Of a stretch of 64,000 nucleotides of DNA, positions 6,930 through 12,857 are shown in pieces. Source of the DNA: Puniceibacterium sp. IMCC21224 (lineage in GTDB: Bacteria; Pseudomonadota; Alphaproteobacteria; Rhodobacterales; Rhodobacteraceae); the NCBI RefSeq assembly GCF_001038505.1, contig NZ_LDPY01000001.1, positions 2,232,001 to 2,296,000 of the forward strand, given 5' to 3'. The translations under genes were made by a program, and so were the position numbers. How positions within the stretch are numbered: position 1 is the first letter of the stretch; each line of letters opens with the position of its first letter. The notes below the pieces were generated by a model. That model saw nothing but the letters and a program-made list of their open reading frames with translations. It was not told the DNA's origin and ran no database searches.

Positions 6930-7241
6930 ACCGTTGGTCCGCGGATGGTTCGGTTTCGCCGGGCGGTGCTCGTTCCCATTGGCCTCGCAGATCATGTCGA
7001 AACGCATTGGCCGAGAATAGATAATGTTGCGGTTCCGGGGTTGCTTGGCGAACTGAATGCCGTTGTCCGTGAGAATGGTGTGGAGCTGATAGGGTACGGC
7101 CTCGAGTATGTGCTGCAGGAATTCCCAGGCAGTGCGCCTGTCGGCCTTATTTACGAGTTGGGTAACGGCGAACTTGCTGGTGCGGTCAATGCCGACAAAG
7201 AGATAGAGCTTGCCTTCCGCAGTCTGCACTTCGCCAATGTC

Positions 7242-7278
7242 CTTTCTCGTGCACGTGAACATGCACTGCCGGGCAGTG
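7242..7278. repeat. 37-nt hairpin insert in IS481 transposase (member A)
   Basis: Removing these 37 nt restores the expected transposase reading FFHI-DIGEVQTAEGKLY across the two flanks, so the borders can be set to the base. The insert starts CTTTCTC, contains an internal stem (GTGCA / TGCAC) and ends with the palindrome CACTGCCGGGCAGTG. Its length is not a multiple of three. Confidence 0.75.
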
Positions 7279-7399
7279 GATGTGAAAGAACCCGATCGGG
7301 TAGCGTTTGAATTTCTGACGCTTTGGCTTGTCTCCCTCAATGTCCGGCAGACGCGATATGCCGTGTCGGTGCAGGCACCAATTAAGGGCTGAGCGTCAA

Positions 7400-7442
7400 C
7401 CTCTCGGAACATTTCCTGCGGAAATACCCTGCCGGGCAGTGG
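7400..7442. repeat. Hairpin insert at a deletion junction (member E)
   Basis: Starts CCTCTC, contains the perfect stem ATTTCC-TGC-GGAAAT (7411-7425) and ends CCCTGCCGGGCAGTGG. It sits exactly where the transposase jumps from the QRS segment to the LTxSALNW segment, so it replaces a deleted stretch. The second IS481 copy has a related insert (15319-15355) at the same left flank but with a different internal stem. Confidence 0.65.
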
Positions 7443-7474
7443 ATCGCTGTATTGCAACTCTGACGGCGTACATG

Positions 7475-7512
7475 CCCTCTCATGGTTTGCTTTGCAAACC
7501 ACTGCCGGGTGG
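7475..7512. repeat. Hairpin insert near IS481 transposase start (member C, copy 1)
   Basis: Starts CCCTCTCAT, contains the stem GGTTTG-CTTTG-CAAACC and ends ACTGCCGGGTGG. It separates the GSAT and HAVR codons of the transposase N-terminus. The same insert, with one base changed in the loop region, is in the second IS481 copy at 15248-15285 at the same place, so it predates the copying of this element. Confidence 0.7.
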
Positions 7513-7550
7513 ACAGTACGTGGCGCTTGACCTGCTCCCCATTGTGTCCG

Positions 7551-7726
7551 CTAATTTAGGTTAGCTCTGTTCAGATTTTGGTCGTCTTTTGATCGGTTAG
7601 CATATTCTGCTGGCGTCAGGCCAGCGAGGCTTGTGTGCGGGCGGTGATGGTTAAAGTCATTGCGCCACGCTGTGATCAGACTGCGTGCATGCCGCAGGTT
7701 GTCGAACAGGTGTTCGTTCAAACACT
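7551..7726 (-). pseudogene. IS3-family orfB, 3' part
   Basis: Reads ECLNEHLFDNLRHARSL..., then FNHHRPHTSLAGLTPAEYANRS and stops at 7551. This is the C-terminal end of an IS3-family OrfB integrase with the conserved HRPH..L.G.TP motif. Its 5' part is at 11043-11536, beyond the inserted transposon. Part of a dead gene. Confidence 0.85.
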
Positions 7727-7751
7727 CGGCCTTATGTATCAAACGCACCAA
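7727..7751 (+). repeat. Left terminal inverted repeat of the transposon
   Basis: 25 bp, begins CGGCCTTATGTATC and ends ACGCACCAA. Perfect inverted match to 11010-11034. The bases just outside (7719-7726, CAAACACT) are repeated directly at 11035-11042. Confidence 0.9.
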
Positions 7752-7794
7752 CAATATATCTGAACAATTCGGCGCTGTGAATCCATAATGGGGT

Positions 7795-8199
7795 ATGGAA
7801 CTTGTCACACAAACCCTAGAGCGCAAACGGGCTGAGATAATCGGGGCTATTAAGAAGCATGAGGCACAGATAGCGCAGGCCAAGCATGACCTAGCGCACA
7901 TCAACGCGACCTTGAAGATCATTGGGGAACCGCAGGGGCGTGGGTACATCGTGTCGCAGGGCTTCTTTGCCAAGGGCGAGATTGCTGCGGTCTGCCAGGG
8001 TCACCTTATTGACGGGCCGCTGAACACCCGTGAACTGGCAGAGCGTGTGATGGGCGAAAAGGGCTTGGACGTATCAGACACCCCATTGCGCAACTCTGTC
8101 GTCTACAAGGTCGTGCAGGCGCTCAGACACGCGCGCAGGCGCAATGCCGTGCGGATGCTAGAGAAGCGTGGCGGGCTATGCGTGTGGGGCGCGATATAG
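7795..8199 (+). CDS. Transposon passenger protein, coiled-coil plus helical domain, unknown
   Basis: A 134-residue protein I do not recognise with certainty. Residues 1-43 are charged and helical (ETLERKRAEIIGAIKKHEAQ style heptads), likely a short coiled coil. Residues 65-130 (AAVCQGHLIDGPLNTRELAERVMGEKGLD...VYKVVQALRHARRR) look like a winged helix-turn-helix followed by a basic C-terminus. A small DNA-binding regulator is plausible; this is inference. It is the first gene inside the left transposon end, with its ATG at 7795 about 45 bp from the inverted repeat, and is transcribed inward. Confidence 0.75.
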   Translation: MELVTQTLERKRAEIIGAIKKHEAQIAQAKHDLAHINATLKIIGEPQGRGYIVSQGFFAKGEIAAVCQGHLIDGPLNTRELAERVMGEKGLDVSDTPLRNSVVYKVVQALRHARRRNAVRMLEKRGGLCVWGAI

Positions 8200-8289
8200 G
8201 GCATGTTGTGCAGGACTTCGGGCCAGATGGGTGTTTGTGGATGCTGGCCCCCGATGGACCAGCATCCTGAGTCAATTTGTCGTCTTGCC

Positions 8290-8511
8290 CTATGCTGCTT
8301 CCTTACAAGCGCATACGAAAAGACGATCCTCGTTGCGGAGAGTGGAGAGAAGGCGGTCACGAAGCTGAGCCGCTGACCCAGCGTAATCAACCCACCATAC
8401 TGTTTCGAGAACCCTGCCCGCTTTTGAAGAAATCGAGCGGATCAGATCATCCATCTCTTTGTGAGACGGAGTTGGGCCGTTGAGATCGTAAGAGAGAAGA
8501 TAACTTGCCAT
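8290..8511 (-). CDS. Small Cas2/VapD-like ferredoxin-fold protein (passenger)
   Basis: A 73-residue protein beginning MASYLLSYDLNGPTPSHKEM. The opening hydrophobic strand ending in SYDL, then a helix, a strand with VWWVDYAGSA, and a C-terminal DRLFVCAC strand recall the small VapD/Cas2-like fold family, seen in proteins often named SinR-like or orphan Cas2-like. That family includes ribonucleases and toxins, but no activity can be read from this sequence. I chose the ATG at 8511 because AGGAG lies 9 nt upstream; the longer frame (from 8574) lacks such a site. No CRISPR array or cas1 is nearby, so a CRISPR role is unlikely. Confidence 0.65.
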   Translation of the reverse strand: MASYLLSYDLNGPTPSHKEMDDLIRSISSKAGRVLETVWWVDYAGSAAQLRDRLLSTLRNEDRLFVCACKEAA

Positions 8512-8631
8512 GAGATGAATCTCCTTTGTTGGCGTTAGATTGACGCCAACAGGAGACTTGACCGTGCTGCTCACCCGTGTAAAAAGAAGGGGTGATCACA
8601 AACTCTAGCCCCTGATGGCTAGTTCGAAATA

Positions 8632-8670
8632 GAGGCGGCAGGGCCACTAACCCCGACCGCCTCAATTTTT
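8632..8670 (+). terminator. Possible rho-independent terminator
   Basis: GAGGCGG (8632-8638) pairs with CCGCCTC (8657-8663), followed by AATTTTT. It could end plus-strand transcription entering from the 7795 gene before it opposes the transposase gene. The loop is long, so this is tentative. Confidence 0.4.
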
Positions 8671-8796
8671 CGTTGATCATGAATCATTTAGCTGGTCTAG
8701 TGGTGTTCCCCTTTCACCCCTACCATCTGTTGTGCCTCAAGCCGCCCGCTGCCAATAGCCCTTCCAGTTGCGCGACACTGGCGAACCCATCGCGTT

Positions 8797-9708
8797 CTAC
8801 ACCACGATCTGCGCCAGTGTGCCGTTGTCGGTGCGGCGGTTATCTTCCAACCATGCGGCGTGGTTTGCATACTGGTAAAGGTATTGAGGCGACACATGGT
8901 GGTGCTGGCCCTCAACCATGCGGCGCAGGCGGCTAAAGAAGCTTTCAACCATGTTGGTGTGTTTGCCGTGGTCGCTGTAAATCTCGGAGTGGTTCACGCG
9001 GTCAACGTAGTGGCCCAAGTGCAATTCATCCCAATGGTTGGCTTCATCCGCTGACATGGTGGACAGGCGCGACACGTTCTCGTTTGCCAGTGCTACACCT
9101 TCGCCCTCGGACATGCCCACGAATGGCAGTGTACGGCCCTCACGCTCACGCAGGGCAATTACAACGCGGCGCTTGCCTGTCTGGTGTTCTTTCTTGCGGC
9201 GATCAACACGATCCACCTTGGCGTTTTCAGGGCGGATATGGCCTCCGAAATACGCACCGTCAATTTCAACATGGCCCTCCAGCACTTCGCCGGTGTGGAC
9301 TTCCCGCGCCATTGCTTCGCGCAGTTTATGGGCCAGTACAAAGGCTGTCTTGTACTGGCAATCAAGGTCACGGCTCAGTTGAACCATGCTCACGCCCTTG
9401 GAGGCGTTCACGATGATGCAGATCGCCGCCCACAGGTCCACAAAGTCCATCTTGCGTGATGCAAAGATTGTGCCGGACGTGACGCTAAACTGGTGGTGAC
9501 ATGCCTTGCACTTGAACTTGCGGCGGGTGGTGATCTTGTAGGCTTCATCAAAACCGCAGCATGGGCAAACAGCTTCGCCATTTGTCTCAGGCCAGCGCAT
9601 CTCGCAAAACGTCTCATAGGCCGCATCTTCGCCAGCTTTGTAAATCGAACGCAGAGAGAGCGTCCGAGATGCTGCTGAAAGAAGGAAGTGTTGGGTCATT
9701 GTCATCAT
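8797..9708 (-). CDS. IS1595/ISXO2-type transposase
   Basis: The mobilising enzyme of the transposon. The protein (about 303 residues from MMTMTQHFLLSAASRTLSL) has an N-terminal zinc ribbon (CPCCGFDE...FKCKACHHQF, about residues 43-70) and an ISXO2-like DDE-type domain. The latter shows HVEIDGAYFGG (first Asp), MSADEANHWDEL (second Asp region) and KHTNMVESFFSRLRRMVEG, the H.N.ESFFS.L.R motif typical of IS1595. I begin at the Met codons at 9700-9708; the open frame extends to 9804 but crosses its likely promoter (ATGTGGATACATC region) and the divergent DUF6471 gene. No frameshift is seen, so it should be active. Confidence 0.92.
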   Translation of the reverse strand: MMTMTQHFLLSAASRTLSLRSIYKAGEDAAYETFCEMRWPETNGEAVCPCCGFDEAYKITTRRKFKCKACHHQFSVTSGTIFASRKMDFVDLWAAICIIVNASKGVSMVQLSRDLDCQYKTAFVLAHKLREAMAREVHTGEVLEGHVEIDGAYFGGHIRPENAKVDRVDRRKKEHQTGKRRVVIALREREGRTLPFVGMSEGEGVALANENVSRLSTMSADEANHWDELHLGHYVDRVNHSEIYSDHGKHTNMVESFFSRLRRMVEGQHHHVSPQYLYQYANHAAWLEDNRRTDNGTLAQIVV

Positions 9709-9802
9709 ATCCAGTGCTGTTGCACTAAATGTGGATACATCATGCACTCTTGTCAAGTGCTTTAGCACCATATATAATGACGAAAATATTATGGAGGGTG
9801 AC

Positions 9803-10027
9803 ATGGTAGACCGTACAGACTGGGAAGAAATGGCGAAGGGGTTGCTTCGGGCTGAAATGGCTCGGCGCGGAACAACATACGCTCAGCTTGTCGAAAAGCT
9901 GGCGGCTATCGGAGTTGAAGACAACGAGAGGAATTTACGCAATAAGGTCAGCAGGGGAAAATTTACCGCAGGATTCCTTTTACAATGCCTTTACGCTCTT
10001 GGATGTTCAAAATTGCAGCTGGATTAG
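9803..10027 (+). CDS. DUF6471 family protein (passenger)
   Basis: A 74-residue protein, MVDRTDWEEMAKGLLRAEMA, continuing with GTTYAQLVEKLAAIGVEDNE, RNLRNKVSRGKFTAGFLLQC and LYALGCSKL. This matches the DUF6471 family of short helix-turn-helix-like proteins in which a W..A..LL..E...RG.TY..L...L...G..E...N..NK..RG.F...F..Q pattern recurs. Such proteins are probably DNA-binding regulators; no function is established here. The ATG at 9803 has GGAGGG 5-10 nt upstream, better than the ATG at 9791 or 9731. It is divergent from the transposase gene (gap about 95 bp) and its 3' end overlaps the next gene by 43 nt, which suggests coupled translation. Confidence 0.75.
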   Translation: MVDRTDWEEMAKGLLRAEMARRGTTYAQLVEKLAAIGVEDNERNLRNKVSRGKFTAGFLLQCLYALGCSKLQLD

Positions 10028-10977
10028 TGTGCTTGGCTTTAATTGGATATGCTGGAAAGTATTCGTGGGACCAGTTTTCAGCCTACCAAGAGGATAAATC
10101 CGACGAACGCATATCCGCATCCCATGATGATGAGTATGCCACCCAACATCGCCCAAGTTCCTGCGGGGCCGTCATGCTCGAAGCTAGCCTCCTTGATGGC
10201 CTTGCTTGTTTGGCCGACAATATAACTGCCAGAGGCGGCGGCAAGCAGGCCGATTATGATTTGAAAGCCCAGCAAGATATGGCGGTATGGGCGTTTGGGA
10301 TGCTTATTATCACCGTCTGGCTTGCTGTTATCACATTTTTTGGTGTTTTCTTTGTCTGGCGAACCCTCAAGTCTACTCAAGACATGGCTAGGGTAACCCG
10401 TGACATCGGGAACCAGCAGACAAAAGCGGCTATACAAACTGTCGAGCAAGGACGAAAAGCCAACGACATCACGAGAGAGGCTATGCAGTCTGCAAACCGG
10501 CCCTTTATCGTCGTGATCCAAAAATTCTCTAATGAAAATGAATGGAGACACGGGAAAGAATCCGGTAGTTGGGAAGTTGAACTTCGGAATTACGGGAACG
10601 GTCCTGCTATCTTGCTTGATGCCCATTGGCAAACATGGGTTGGCCCGAACGAAGAAACTCCAGAGAACCGAAAAAACAAATTGTTGTCCAAGGGATTCGC
10701 TGGGTCTGTCGATGATGACATCATCCACCTGGGCAAATCTATCTCCAAAACTGTGTCGATCCAGAGGCTTGGAGAAGGCCAATTCCCACAAGGCGGCTCT
10801 GGAAACCAGATTACTATGGCGCTCCAAGACGGGAAGATTTTCGGCTGGCTTGATGTTTCCGTCGTCTATGAGAGCCTGTACGGAACCAAGCATGAGACCA
10901 GAGCGCTTTTCCGCATAGAGAATTTCCTCGGAACATCCACGCATTTCGGTGGAAACCAGCGCAACTACCGCACATAA
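9985..10977 (+). CDS. Two-span membrane protein, unknown function (passenger)
   Basis: A 330-residue protein without a family name I can give. It has a membrane span at about residues 7-26 (MFKIAAGLVCLALIGYAG), a loop, a second longer span at about 97-127 (AVWAFGMLIITVWLAVITFF), a helical linker rich in Gln/Lys, then a globular C-terminal domain (residues 165-330) beginning SANRPFIVV. Proteins with this layout are common near phage and mobile elements in alphaproteobacteria. The start overlaps DUF6471 by 43 nt and has only a weak ribosome site (GCAGGA, 14 nt upstream), so the start is uncertain. A 303-codon frame lies antisense (10078-10989) but shows no domain logic. Confidence 0.65.
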   Translation: MPLRSWMFKIAAGLVCLALIGYAGKYSWDQFSAYQEDKSDERISASHDDEYATQHRPSSCGAVMLEASLLDGLACLADNITARGGGKQADYDLKAQQDMAVWAFGMLIITVWLAVITFFGVFFVWRTLKSTQDMARVTRDIGNQQTKAAIQTVEQGRKANDITREAMQSANRPFIVVIQKFSNENEWRHGKESGSWEVELRNYGNGPAILLDAHWQTWVGPNEETPENRKNKLLSKGFAGSVDDDIIHLGKSISKTVSIQRLGEGQFPQGGSGNQITMALQDGKIFGWLDVSVVYESLYGTKHETRALFRIENFLGTSTHFGGNQRNYRT

Positions 10978-11009
10978 TACACTAATCATCCATCACCCCA
11001 TCCCGGTGA

Positions 11010-11034
11010 TTGGTGCGTTTGATACATAAGGCCG
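11010..11034 (-). repeat. Right terminal inverted repeat of the transposon
   Basis: Perfect 25-bp complement of 7727-7751, followed by the direct repeat CAAACACT (11035-11042) that also precedes the left repeat. Confidence 0.9.
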
Positions 11035-11042
11035 CAAACACT

Positions 11043-11536
11043 CATCCCGCATCCTACCGTTGAAGCTTTCCACAAAACCGTTTTGCATGGGCTTGCCAGG
11101 CGCGATGTAATGCCAGTCAACCTTGCGGTCTTCTTGCCACTTCAGGATCGCATTCGAAGTCAGCTTGGTTCCATTGTCGCTGACGACCATGCTGGGATAC
11201 CCCCGCATATCTGCGATCCGATCCAGCTCGCGGGCCACACGTTCGCCCGACAACGAGGTGTAGCCAACAGCAGCCAGACATTCCCGGCTGAAGTCATAGA
11301 TCACGTTCAATATGCGGAAACGACGACCGCACGACAGGCTGTCAGACACGAAGTCGAGCGACCAACGCTTTCGGCCCCTGTGGAATCGCTATGGGTGTTC
11401 TGGTGCCCACTGCACGCTTGCGACCGCTACGTTTACGCACTGTTAACCCTTCTTCGCGGTAGAACCGATACAGCTTCTTCCAATTCACCGCCCAGCCTTC
11501 ACGTTTGAGCAAGATGTGCAGCGGTAATCCCCCCAT
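11043..11536 (-). pseudogene. IS3-family orfB, 5' part, frameshifted and truncated
   Basis: Reads LHILLKREGWAVNWKKLYRF, YREEGLTVRKRSGRKRA, then in another frame [38 protein letters not shown] and [20 protein letters not shown]. These are the DDE core motifs of an IS3-family OrfB. A single-base frameshift lies near 11370: the expected RWSLDFVSD is read only after a shift at GGGCCGAAAGCG. The 5' end is replaced by IS3-family element 2, and the 3' end continues at 7551-7726 beyond the transposon. Confidence 0.85.
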
Positions 11537-11561
11537 TTTTAATGGGGTGCAGCCGTAGAAC

Positions 11562-12389
11562 TTACGCGGCCATTTTCAGTTTCTGTGCGGGTGTGATGCC
11601 GCCGATGCCCATGTTCGGGCGGTCGTTGTTGTAAGTCCAGAGCCATTGCGTGGCGAAGTCTTGGGCCTCCTCGATGTTTTCGATGATGTGTTGGTCCAGC
11701 CATTCATTCCTGACGGTGCGGTTGTAACGTTCGATGTAGGCGTTCTGCTGGGGCTGTCCTGGTTGGATGTGCTGGAGGGTAACACCTTGTTTCTCAGCCC
11801 ATTCCAGCAGCTTGATGCTGATGTATTCAGGGCCATTATCGACCCGGATCGTGCCGGGCTTGCCACGCCATTCGATGATGCGATCGAGGCTCCGGATCAC
11901 GCGTTCAGCAGGCAATGAAAAGTCGACCTCAATGCCAAGCCCTTCGCGGTTGAAGTCGTCCAGCACGTTCAGCAGTCGAAACTGACGACCGTCGCTCAGC
12001 CTGTCGGCCATAAAGTCCATCGACCAGGTCATGTTGGGGGCCTCGGGTACCGCCAGCGCGTCGGGTTTATCCCGCTTTAGCCGTTTGCGGGGCTTAATCC
12101 GCAGGTTCAGTTCCAGCGCGCAATAGATGCGATAGACCCGCTTATGGTTCCACGGATGACCTTTGACGTTGCGCAGGTGCAGATAGCAAAGTCCGAAGCC
12201 CCAAGTCTTCCTCGTATCCGTCAGCCCGACAAGCAAATCGGCAATCTGTTCGTTCTCATCGCTCAGAAGCGGGCTGTAGCGATAGCAGGTCTCGCTAACC
12301 CCAAAGGTGCGGCACGCCACGGCGACACTGACCCCGCGTCGCTCTACCGCCGTTGCGGCCATCTCTCGTCGCTGAGATGGCCCAGTCAC
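11562..12389 (-). CDS. IS3-family transposase OrfB (integrase core)
   Basis: A 275-residue DDE integrase with an N-terminal HTH_21-like part ([20 protein letters not shown]) and the catalytic residues in [12 protein letters not shown] (Asp), [12 protein letters not shown] (Asp) and [17 protein letters not shown] (Glu). It starts at the ATG at 12389, overlapping orfA by 4 nt. In IS3 elements the active enzyme is normally an OrfAB fusion made by -1 frameshifting; a run of six A (minus strand, 12390-12395) just before the orfA stop is well placed for it. No defect is visible. Confidence 0.92.
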
Positions 12390-12667
12390 TTTTTTCCAAG
12401 GGCTTCCTTCAGCAACTCGTTCTGCATGCTCAACTCTGCGAACATCTTCTTCAGGCGTCGGTTCTCGTCTTCAAGCGCCTTGGTCTGCGCGATCATTGAA
12501 GCATCCATCCCGCCATACTTCGCCCGCCATTTGTAAAAGGACGCTGTGCTCATACCATGTTCGCGGCAAAGCTCGGCCACCGGAACACCGCCTTCGGCCT
12601 GGCGCAGGATCGCAAGGATCTGCGGCTCACTGTATCTCGTCATCTTCATCTGAATCTCCTCATGCAT
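12386..12667 (-). CDS. IS3-family transposase OrfA (helix-turn-helix)
   Basis: A 93-residue protein with a homeodomain-like HTH ([20 protein letters not shown], then [20 protein letters not shown]) and a C-terminal leucine zipper ([20 protein letters not shown]). This is the standard DNA-binding subunit of IS3 elements. The ATG at 12649 ([10 protein letters not shown]) is an equally good start. The gene ends ALGKK in the A6 run followed by TGA, where frameshifting into orfB is expected. Confidence 0.9.
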
Positions 12668-12857
12668 CTTGCCGAGAAAATTCTACTTCCGCAGCCCCTT
12701 ACTTTCGGGGGGGATTACCGGGGGATTACCAATAAATCACGCTCAAACCGCTCGTCACATGCCCAAACCACGGCTCAGCGCGACCAATAAGCTTGATCGC
12801 TGAGCAAAATGGCCGCAACCGTCAGCCGGTCTGCGTTCTACTCGGGAATGTCGGCTC

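Follow-up and report, generated by a model that had tools for sequence, protein, structure and literature searches.

A probable IS1595 transposon subfamily with a three-gene core, two exchangeable cargo slots and a putative DUF6471 repressor

Background

Insertion sequences (IS) of the IS1595 family are characterised by a single transposase gene (PMC8101967), and the transporter IS (tIS) members of the family carry passenger genes (Siguier, Gagnevin and Chandler 2009, cited in PMC3129680, PMC7986276 and PMC8101967). Passenger-bearing IS are already known (PMC3129680, PMC7986276). In this work we analysed a stretch of 64,000 nucleotides (hereafter the window) from Puniceibacterium sp. IMCC21224 (contig NZ_LDPY01000001.1, positions 2,232,001 to 2,296,000 of the forward strand), of which positions 7,727 to 11,034 hold an element of this kind. 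Like the tIS, it has a transposase with a zinc ribbon and a DDE_Tnp_IS1595 domain, an 8-bp target duplication, terminal inverted repeats and passengers. It differs from them, together with its relatives, in a fixed three-gene core with two variable slots that turn over rapidly and separately, and in the presence of DUF6471 as a predicted divergent regulator with covarying putative operators. A literature search, judged by titles and the openings of abstracts, found no description of such a two-slot family, and the founding 2009 IS1595 paper may hold a prior one.

The putative regulator resembles the Xre/Cro autoregulators (the restriction-modification C proteins C.BclI and C.Esp1396I, HipB, ClgR, 434 repressor) in being, by model, a compact helical helix-turn-helix (HTH) protein with inverted repeats in its own promoter region. 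It differs in having no meaningful sequence match in the PDB, in lying beside a transposase gene, and in a specificity that appears to diversify within one mobile family. The same literature search found no paper on DUF6471 and nothing on transposon repressors with coevolution of operator and recognition helix. Cargo-carrying defence transposons and defence islands also exist. Some slots of the present family hold, in a similar way, Panacea, BstA-like, HEC-09, PDC-S05, PDC-S42 and methyltransferase genes, but its transposase-bearing elements span only about 2.3-5.2 kb, with usually one to few genes per slot and a single IS1595 transposase. Taking the comparisons below as a whole, which rest on sequence, we consider it probable (roughly 0.8) that the family consists of a three-gene core and two swappable slots, with DUF6471 as a repressor that has class-specific putative operators.

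Results and discussion

Survey of relatives and the three-gene core

Relatives were collected in two rounds. In the first, we performed gene searches in 198 family-level genomes and examined the surroundings of the matches (about 13 kb), and we also searched 390 order-level genomes by the ends alone, allowing up to 3 mismatches, from which 58 stretches were taken. A search with the 25-bp repeat had been proposed in the first-pass annotation of the window, and it was productive: at least one end (up to 3 mismatches) was found in 56 of the 390 order-level genomes, whereas the backward end pattern, used as control, matched once in total among the same genomes. In the second round, a DUF6471 profile was run over one genome per species (84,980 species) and the best 80 of 230 relatives were kept, so this survey is biased to the DUF6471 type of the window. 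In the gene searches a single genome gave two DUF6471 matches, which are adjacent to each other. The two surveys gave 45 and 56 delimited elements, respectively, 4 of the latter being identical to elements of the first, that is 97 unique elements. The 87 that bear a transposase comprise 36 from the first survey (11 by gene search and 25 by the ends alone) and 51 from the second. Loci are referred to below by L numbers.

An exact 8-bp target duplication, as in the window, flanks 37 of 45 elements of the first survey, 43 of 52 of the second and 80 of the 97 unique elements. These counts are not fully independent, because in both surveys, and most strongly in the second, the duplication helped to choose between candidate end pairs. 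Terminal inverted repeats are common to the copies. The window transposase matched PF12762 (DDE_Tnp_IS1595, E-value 5.7e-35) and PF12760 (IS1595 zinc ribbon, 2.7e-14), as well as NF033547 with 138 bits against a cut-off of 75. It is the single transposase gene of the element, and further non-transposase genes are present, as in tIS and in contrast to a simple IS. As judged from these features the family is a subfamily of IS1595 transposons, mostly alphaproteobacterial. One locus with a Cas2-like slot 1, L195, lies on an Arenimonas contig of a metagenome-assembled genome (MAG) and is thus non-alphaproteobacterial; MAG contamination is possible there.

The delimited elements show a fixed order, given here by predicted features: left end, a coiled-coil and winged-helix-turn-helix (wHTH)-like gene, slot 1, the transposase gene on the minus strand, the putative operator region, DUF6471 on the plus strand, slot 2 and the right end. 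A left open reading frame (ORF) of at least 95 aa, starting at most 115 nt from the left end, was found in 78 of the 87 transposase-bearing elements, and its commonest start in the relatives is the same as in the window (Table 1). DUF6471 was present in all 25 transposase-bearing elements that had been found by the ends alone, and its helix motif in all 36 transposase-bearing elements of the first survey; the 51 further elements of the second survey carry it by selection. Searching in the opposite direction, 73 of the 80 DUF6471 loci (the best 80 of 230, chosen regardless of transposase) had a divergent IS1595 transposase match beside DUF6471, which at some loci is only fragmentary, e.g. L132, L197 and L200. 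Because the HTH-like gene and DUF6471 are conserved as core (78/87 and 25/25), they are parts of the element and not passengers. The first-pass annotation had counted four passengers; only the Cas2-like gene in slot 1 and the membrane gene in slot 2 are left as cargo.

The left gene had no Pfam, NCBIfam or PADLOC match above cut-off. Its best PDB profile match was a conserved hypothetical protein, 2g9w (E-value 0.014), which we take to be BlaI-like. A scan of IMG/VR for the left gene returned 25 pattern matches with no relative among them.

Separate turnover of the two slots

We defined slot 1 as the DNA between the left gene and the transposase gene and slot 2 as the DNA to the right of DUF6471, and compared slot DNA in the 80 of 87 elements in which both slots were long enough. 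Among 62 pairs with transposases at least 90% identical, slot-1 DNA was similar in 4 pairs, slot-2 DNA in 1 and both in none. The corresponding values for the 768 pairs with 80-90% identical transposases were 15, 21 and 0. Slot-1 DNA was similar in 33 pairs overall, none of which had similar slot-2 DNA. As an individual example, L087 and L135 have 98% identical transposases and similar left genes, with both slots different. For the pairs compared, this shows slot DNA being replaced far faster than the core, and each slot separately.

In 3 of 9 compared pairs (L048/L196, L070/L134, L164/L161) the two elements have a similar block that begins close to the transposase stop and extends to roughly where the slot-2 gene starts within DUF6471. 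In addition, a 36-bp segment coding VVQDFGPDGCLW is located near the end of left genes that differ in their N-terminal type. It was found in 13 of the 97 elements at up to 6 mismatches and never in shuffled sequence. In the window and in L193 the segment lies downstream of the stop codon as an untranslated remnant, which suggests a past exchange at the slot-1 border. The slot patterns would fit exchange through recombination in common blocks.

These results bear on the function that the first-pass annotation had proposed for the element, namely that its four small genes may act as a single, co-inherited system for defence, toxin-antitoxin activity or maintenance on an IS1595 element. All four genes do lie between the same ends, toxin-antitoxin- or defence-like slot-1 genes occur in some relatives, and in the window, as in L135, a Cas2-like slot 1 is combined with a slot-2 protein from the same diverse membrane family, the slot-2 DNA of the two being dissimilar. 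However, the HTH-like gene and DUF6471 are present whatever the cargo, L093 and L195 combine a Cas2-like slot 1 with other slot-2 proteins, and neither the Cas2-like nor the membrane protein of the window matches a defence family. Since the slots exchange separately (0/33), we do not regard the gene combination of the window as a co-inherited module, and this explanation, already weakened, is highly improbable.

DUF6471 and its predicted operators

The window DUF6471 protein matched PF20075 with 110.6 bits against a gathering score of 26.8. Its AlphaFold2 model is a four-helix HTH (predicted local distance difference test, pLDDT, 94), and Foldseek matched the model to ClgR, HipB, C.BclI, C.Esp1396I and the 434 repressor with probabilities of 0.87-1.00 and template-modelling (TM) scores by query of 0.55-0.70. 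A PDB profile search with DUF6471 gave no meaningful chain match (best E-value 0.31). Between the two divergent genes, inverted repeats are found at preferred distances from the transposase start, about 13 nt (O1), 35 nt (O2) and 66 nt (O3), not all of them in every element and with half-sites that vary between elements. In 52 of 78 regions O1 had no more than one mismatch among its 6 arm positions, compared to a mean of 4.2 and a maximum of 10 in shuffles. Promoter-like sites for DUF6471 were found in 39 of 86 regions versus 18.6 in shuffles. In the window there is no clear O2 palindrome; O3 is located between the -35 and -10 boxes of the predicted DUF6471 promoter and O1 in the transposase leader.

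In order to relate protein to DNA, we used residues 2 and 5 of the predicted recognition helix (X1 and X2 in the motif E-X1-N-[VIL]-X2-N-K). These recognition-helix positions are the usual base-reading positions. Of 113 unique regions, 86 had the anchor, 78 had both proteins long enough and 72 were assigned an operator class. The residue pair VR went with GTAA in 24 of 30 elements (5 GTAT and 1 GCAA in the remainder), VA or AA with ATAT in 10 of 10, RR with GCAC in 6 of 8, AR with GCAT in 8 of 13, PR with ATCA in 6 of 9 and KA with CCCT in 2 of 2. When only one element per 90% transposase cluster was retained (n = 54), the mutual information (MI) was 1.63, with a permuted maximum of 0.87 (0/5000 permutations). 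A partial Mantel test (n = 58) of operator versus DUF6471 given transposase gave r = 0.30 (0/2000), whereas that of operator versus left gene given transposase gave r = -0.03 (1640/2000). Bias-corrected MI was 0.94 for X1 and 0.56 for X2, the best columns elsewhere reaching 0.36 in the transposase and 0.18 in the left gene. The covarying bases at O1 are dyad-symmetric about its centre (-6/+5, -4/+3, -3/+2). On the transposase tree, the association of VR with GTA averaged 8.3 pairs in the same way and 0.0 in the opposite way (median p 0.0078). It seems from these data that recognition-helix residues of DUF6471 have changed in step with DNA sites beside the transposase gene.

The HTH fold, the covarying repeats and the location of O3 inside the DUF6471 promoter are our reasons for reading the protein as a repressor, and we conclude that DUF6471 is, by prediction, an autoregulated repressor of the transposase whose specificity is diversifying. 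A different role would be that of an activator or transpososome factor, which binds the repeats and stimulates transposase expression or assembles with the transposase. The C proteins of restriction-modification systems, whose fold is similar, are able to act both as activators and as repressors, and repeats at up to three places could give graded control. In the window, however, O3 falls within the promoter spacer and O1 within the transposase leader, which are the classical positions of repression, and the repeats are distant from the element ends; we consider the activating role unlikely.

A number of observations weigh against the overall reading. The operator classes were set after seeing the repeats, and 6 of the 78 elements were left out as unclassified. 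On the tree only VR is significant; AR, RR, X2 = A and PR go in the same direction with at most 5 supported pairs each, and AR shows an occasional opposite pair. Third codon positions of residues 39, 36 and 41 reach MI values of 0.53, 0.43 and 0.42, the highest value for a single base is found at +17 (1.04), close to O2, and covariation is also seen for bases beyond the repeats (-18 with 0.61, +60 with 0.70). Without correction the values are close (1.25 for X1, 1.08 for the best left-gene column, 1.04 for the best transposase column), so the contrast between X1 and other columns depends on the bias correction. Either linkage may contribute to the covariation or alignment offsets may blur the picture, and joint transfer by recombination could make part of the covariation, because DUF6471 adjoins its operators. 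Foldseek E-values for DUF6471 are 0.07 or worse, with none at or below 0.001, and the window promoter scan (at least 9/12) found 1 site against an average of 0.6 in shuffles. The route of cargo exchange is one that we infer from slot patterns, and a benefit of the window cargo to the host is a guess, because that cargo matches no known family.

The extreme form of the linkage argument is that DUF6471 and the repeats only move jointly by recombination, and that another protein, such as the transposase or the left wHTH-like protein, reads the repeats. DUF6471 does lie next to the repeats, covariation extends as described to some third codon positions and to bases beyond the repeats, and the blocks do recombine, since operator class and X1X2 each change 41 times on the transposase tree. 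On the other hand, the top protein signals are the non-synonymous codon positions of helix residues 2 and 5, third positions averaging 0.10; the covarying O1 bases have dyad symmetry; DUF6471 forms with AR or VR, whether long or short, have operator classes in common; and the left-gene distance is uncorrelated once the transposase is controlled. Linkage as the whole explanation is in our judgement quite unlikely compared to direct reading of the repeats by DUF6471.

Cargo of slot 1 and slot 2

The slot-1 genes of the relatives include SocA/Panacea proteins (L043, L048, L070), KilA-N (L044) and Bro-N (L045) proteins with BstA-like C-terminal parts, a DUF4258 and MqsA-like pair (L052), NYN/HEC-09 (L069), RhuM/PDC-S05 (L071), an SDH-type protease (L089), ORF6N/PDC-S05 (L178) and a DNA methyltransferase (L179). 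PADLOC models were matched at 1e-5 or better by 8 of 20 cargo proteins, which were picked by hand and are enriched for recognisable ones. Several slot-1 genes of relatives thus resemble toxin-antitoxin or phage-defence genes by their family matches. The functional guess of the first-pass annotation (defence or toxin-antitoxin) fits slot 1 of several relatives and is only a conjecture for the window itself. Toxin, antitoxin or defence models were matched by the cargo of some relatives only; in Pfam, NCBIfam and PADLOC the Cas2-like and membrane proteins of the window had nothing above cut-off.

The label Cas2/VapD-like, given to the small slot-1 protein in the first-pass annotation, found no support in Pfam, NCBIfam or PADLOC. 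Like Cas2/VapD ferredoxin-fold proteins it is small, and the Y-D at the end of its first strand agrees with the Cas2 alignment; it differs from them in that neither it nor four relatives matched PF09827 (Cas2), and no Cas1 was found among the Pfam-scanned ORFs of the element. In a comparison by hhalign with an alignment of 12 of the 22 proteins that matched Pfam Cas2 in 100 searched genomes, a Cas2 identity was not confirmed, the probability being 23% over 9 columns only, versus 0.1% for DUF6471 as negative control. With the Cas2-like profile, no PDB chain, including solved chains of VapD and Cas2, was obtained at an E-value of 1 or lower. The protein recurs as slot-1 cargo at 60-71% identity in L093, L135 and L195, and more distant versions of it occupy slot 1 of L144 and L151. 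L180 had been considered as a further carrier from its slot-1 DNA similarity and was dropped, there being no Cas2-like frame. Whether passengers occur apart from the ends had been named as a check, and the outcome is mixed: the Cas2-like gene was found in 4 of the 198 family-level genomes, 3 of these without family ends in about 13 kb, so the gene also lives apart from the element, yet it is recurrent slot-1 cargo.

The commonest content of slot 2 is a diverse membrane family, found in 41 of the 56 elements of the second survey, which favours the DUF6471 type linked with it, and as 13 clustered proteins in the first. Other slots 2 hold an M78 peptidase pair (L053), a PDC-S42-like protein (L093) or no family. 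The membrane spans of the window protein are read from its sequence. Its structural model has a helical N-terminus, a long coiled coil and a C-terminal beta-sandwich (mean pLDDT 77.8, predicted TM score 0.51), and the best PDB matches of the model include ApaG-type domains (E-values 1.8e-5 to 1.7e-4, TM by target 0.54-0.65); a PDB profile search with the sequence gave a best E-value of 0.12. In relatives, the membrane gene starts inside DUF6471 at a near-constant place, and the overlap (43 nt in the window) suggests translational coupling.

A second recurrent slot-2 family has about 280 aa (L056 5763-6605, L064 1836-2672, L073 2949-3809, L115 5108-5971, L072 333-1181 and L089 3357-4211). None of the three proteins that were scanned (L056, L072, L089) had a Pfam match. 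The slot-2 protein of L093 is of similar length, is unmatched to this family and resembles the PADLOC candidate PDC-S42. At L099, two family ends separated by 4.9 kb and with no matching duplication enclose a 537-aa protein with a GxxGxGKT motif (1048-2661), which lies beside a fragment of the 280-aa family.

Slot content could also be neutral junk from imprecise capture, not under selection. Most slot-2 and many slot-1 genes examined belong to no known family, and some slots seem empty or fragmentary. The same cargo families (KilA-N/Bro-N, Panacea, NYN, Cas2-like) nevertheless recur with different cores, the above 8 of 20 hand-picked proteins match PADLOC models, and the transposase-less mini-elements L096, L095 and L115, with exact duplication, still hold cargo. 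We find an origin as mere junk very unlikely.

Borders and state of the window copy

Coordinates of the element are given in Table 1. The borders had been correctly drawn in the first-pass annotation, which described an IS1595-type transposon bearing additional genes, bounded by perfect ends and flanked by an 8-bp duplication. The terminal repeats are 25 nt long and 100% complementary, the two copies of the duplication are exact, and all five ORFs said to lie inside are present. Joining the flanks with one duplication copy restores, as claimed, the interrupted IS3 orfB, giving a 173-codon open stretch through DECL-NEHLF. Other IS3 copies in the same genome are partial, and the empty-site frame rests on the joined flanks. 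From the duplications and this empty site we infer transposition of the window element. IS3-type orfB fragments, some interrupted or truncated, surround the element in window positions 7000-7726 and 11043-12700.

Table 1 Features of the element. Positions refer to the window, except for the recognition helix, which is given in residues of DUF6471.
Feature	Position	Strand	Remarks
Target duplication, left copy (CAAACACT)	7719..7726	unstranded	exact match to right copy; empty IS3 frame
Left terminal inverted repeat, 25 nt	7727..7751	+	
Core gene 1, coiled-coil and winged-helix-like protein, 134 aa	7795..8199	+	starts at element position 69
36-bp remnant of another left-gene 3' end	8205..8240	+	after the stop of core gene 1
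Slot-1 cargo, small Cas2-like protein	8290..8511	-	C-terminus shorter than in L093, L135, L195
Core gene 2, IS1595 transposase (zinc ribbon and DDE)	8797..9699	-	start from relatives; ORF open up to 9804
Predicted operator O1, AGTGC-TGTT-GCACT	9713..9726	unstranded	inverted repeat in transposase leader
Sigma-70-like promoter TTGTCA-17-TATAAT for DUF6471	9750..9778	+	11/12 consensus positions
Predicted operator O3, GTGCT-TT-AGCAC	9757..9768	unstranded	inverted repeat in DUF6471 promoter spacer
Core gene 3, DUF6471, Xre-type HTH regulator	9803..10027	+	alternative start 9791
Predicted recognition helix of DUF6471	residues 42-51		specificity residues R43 and R46 (RR class)
Slot-2 cargo, membrane protein	9985..10977	+	starts 43 nt inside DUF6471
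Right terminal inverted repeat, 25 nt	11010..11034	+	
Target duplication, right copy (CAAACACT)	11035..11042	unstranded	exact match to left copy

The transposase had been annotated as ISXO2-like; Pfam confirms the DDE domain, and the relatives place the start at about 9699 and not at 9804. An in-frame stop at 8797-8799 removes about 20 C-terminal residues that are conserved in the transposases of relatives. In its own genome the family ends were found as a single pair, i.e. the window copy, for which reason no second site is visible there. Because the transposase ends early and only one copy is present in the genome, the window copy is probably no longer self-mobile; relatives with an intact transposase exist.

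Mini-elements without transposase, having the same kind of ends, were found at L096, L117, L122, L115, L095 and L075, with exact 8-bp duplications in L096, L115, L095 and L075. Some retain DUF6471 and the membrane gene, and in L096 the start of the left gene is fused to DUF6471. Simpler relatives are seen at L003 (3965-5350, Paracoccus yeei plasmid) and L004 (3923-5309, Limimaricola variabilis plasmid), where the HTH-like gene and the transposase gene are convergent and the DUF6471 motif is absent from the stretch examined.

Conclusions

In the mechanism that we propose for the family, a DUF6471 dimer would bind the repeats and repress the transposase gene and its own gene. Copies of the same specificity would silence each other and diverged copies would escape. 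Co-resident elements would then recombine in the conserved blocks (left gene end, transposase-DUF6471, right end), leading to exchange of cargo. The cargo itself, which in the case of slot 1 frequently resembles toxin-antitoxin or phage-defence genes, would favour the host keeping the element. In the window, slot 1 holds the small Cas2-like protein and slot 2 the coiled-coil membrane protein. A more ambitious version, which we put forward tentatively and would sooner doubt than accept, is that the elements form immunity groups: each DUF6471 would repress only elements with matching operators, a recognition code made up of roughly two residues (positions 2 and 5 of the helix) would yield new groups, and switched copies would escape, coexist, recombine in the core and swap cargo, which would make the family a two-slot shuffling vehicle for defence-like genes.

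If the repressor reading is right, DUF6471, a domain of unknown function, would gain a specific role together with a proposed amino-acid-to-base code taken from natural variation. The family would represent a transposon of very small size in which the machinery of transposition is retained and the load is replaced at two sites, the cargo being phage-defence-like in several cases. Such elements would offer part of an explanation for the transfer of individual defence genes among alphaproteobacteria in the absence of large islands, and for a possible mutual regulation of transposon copies.

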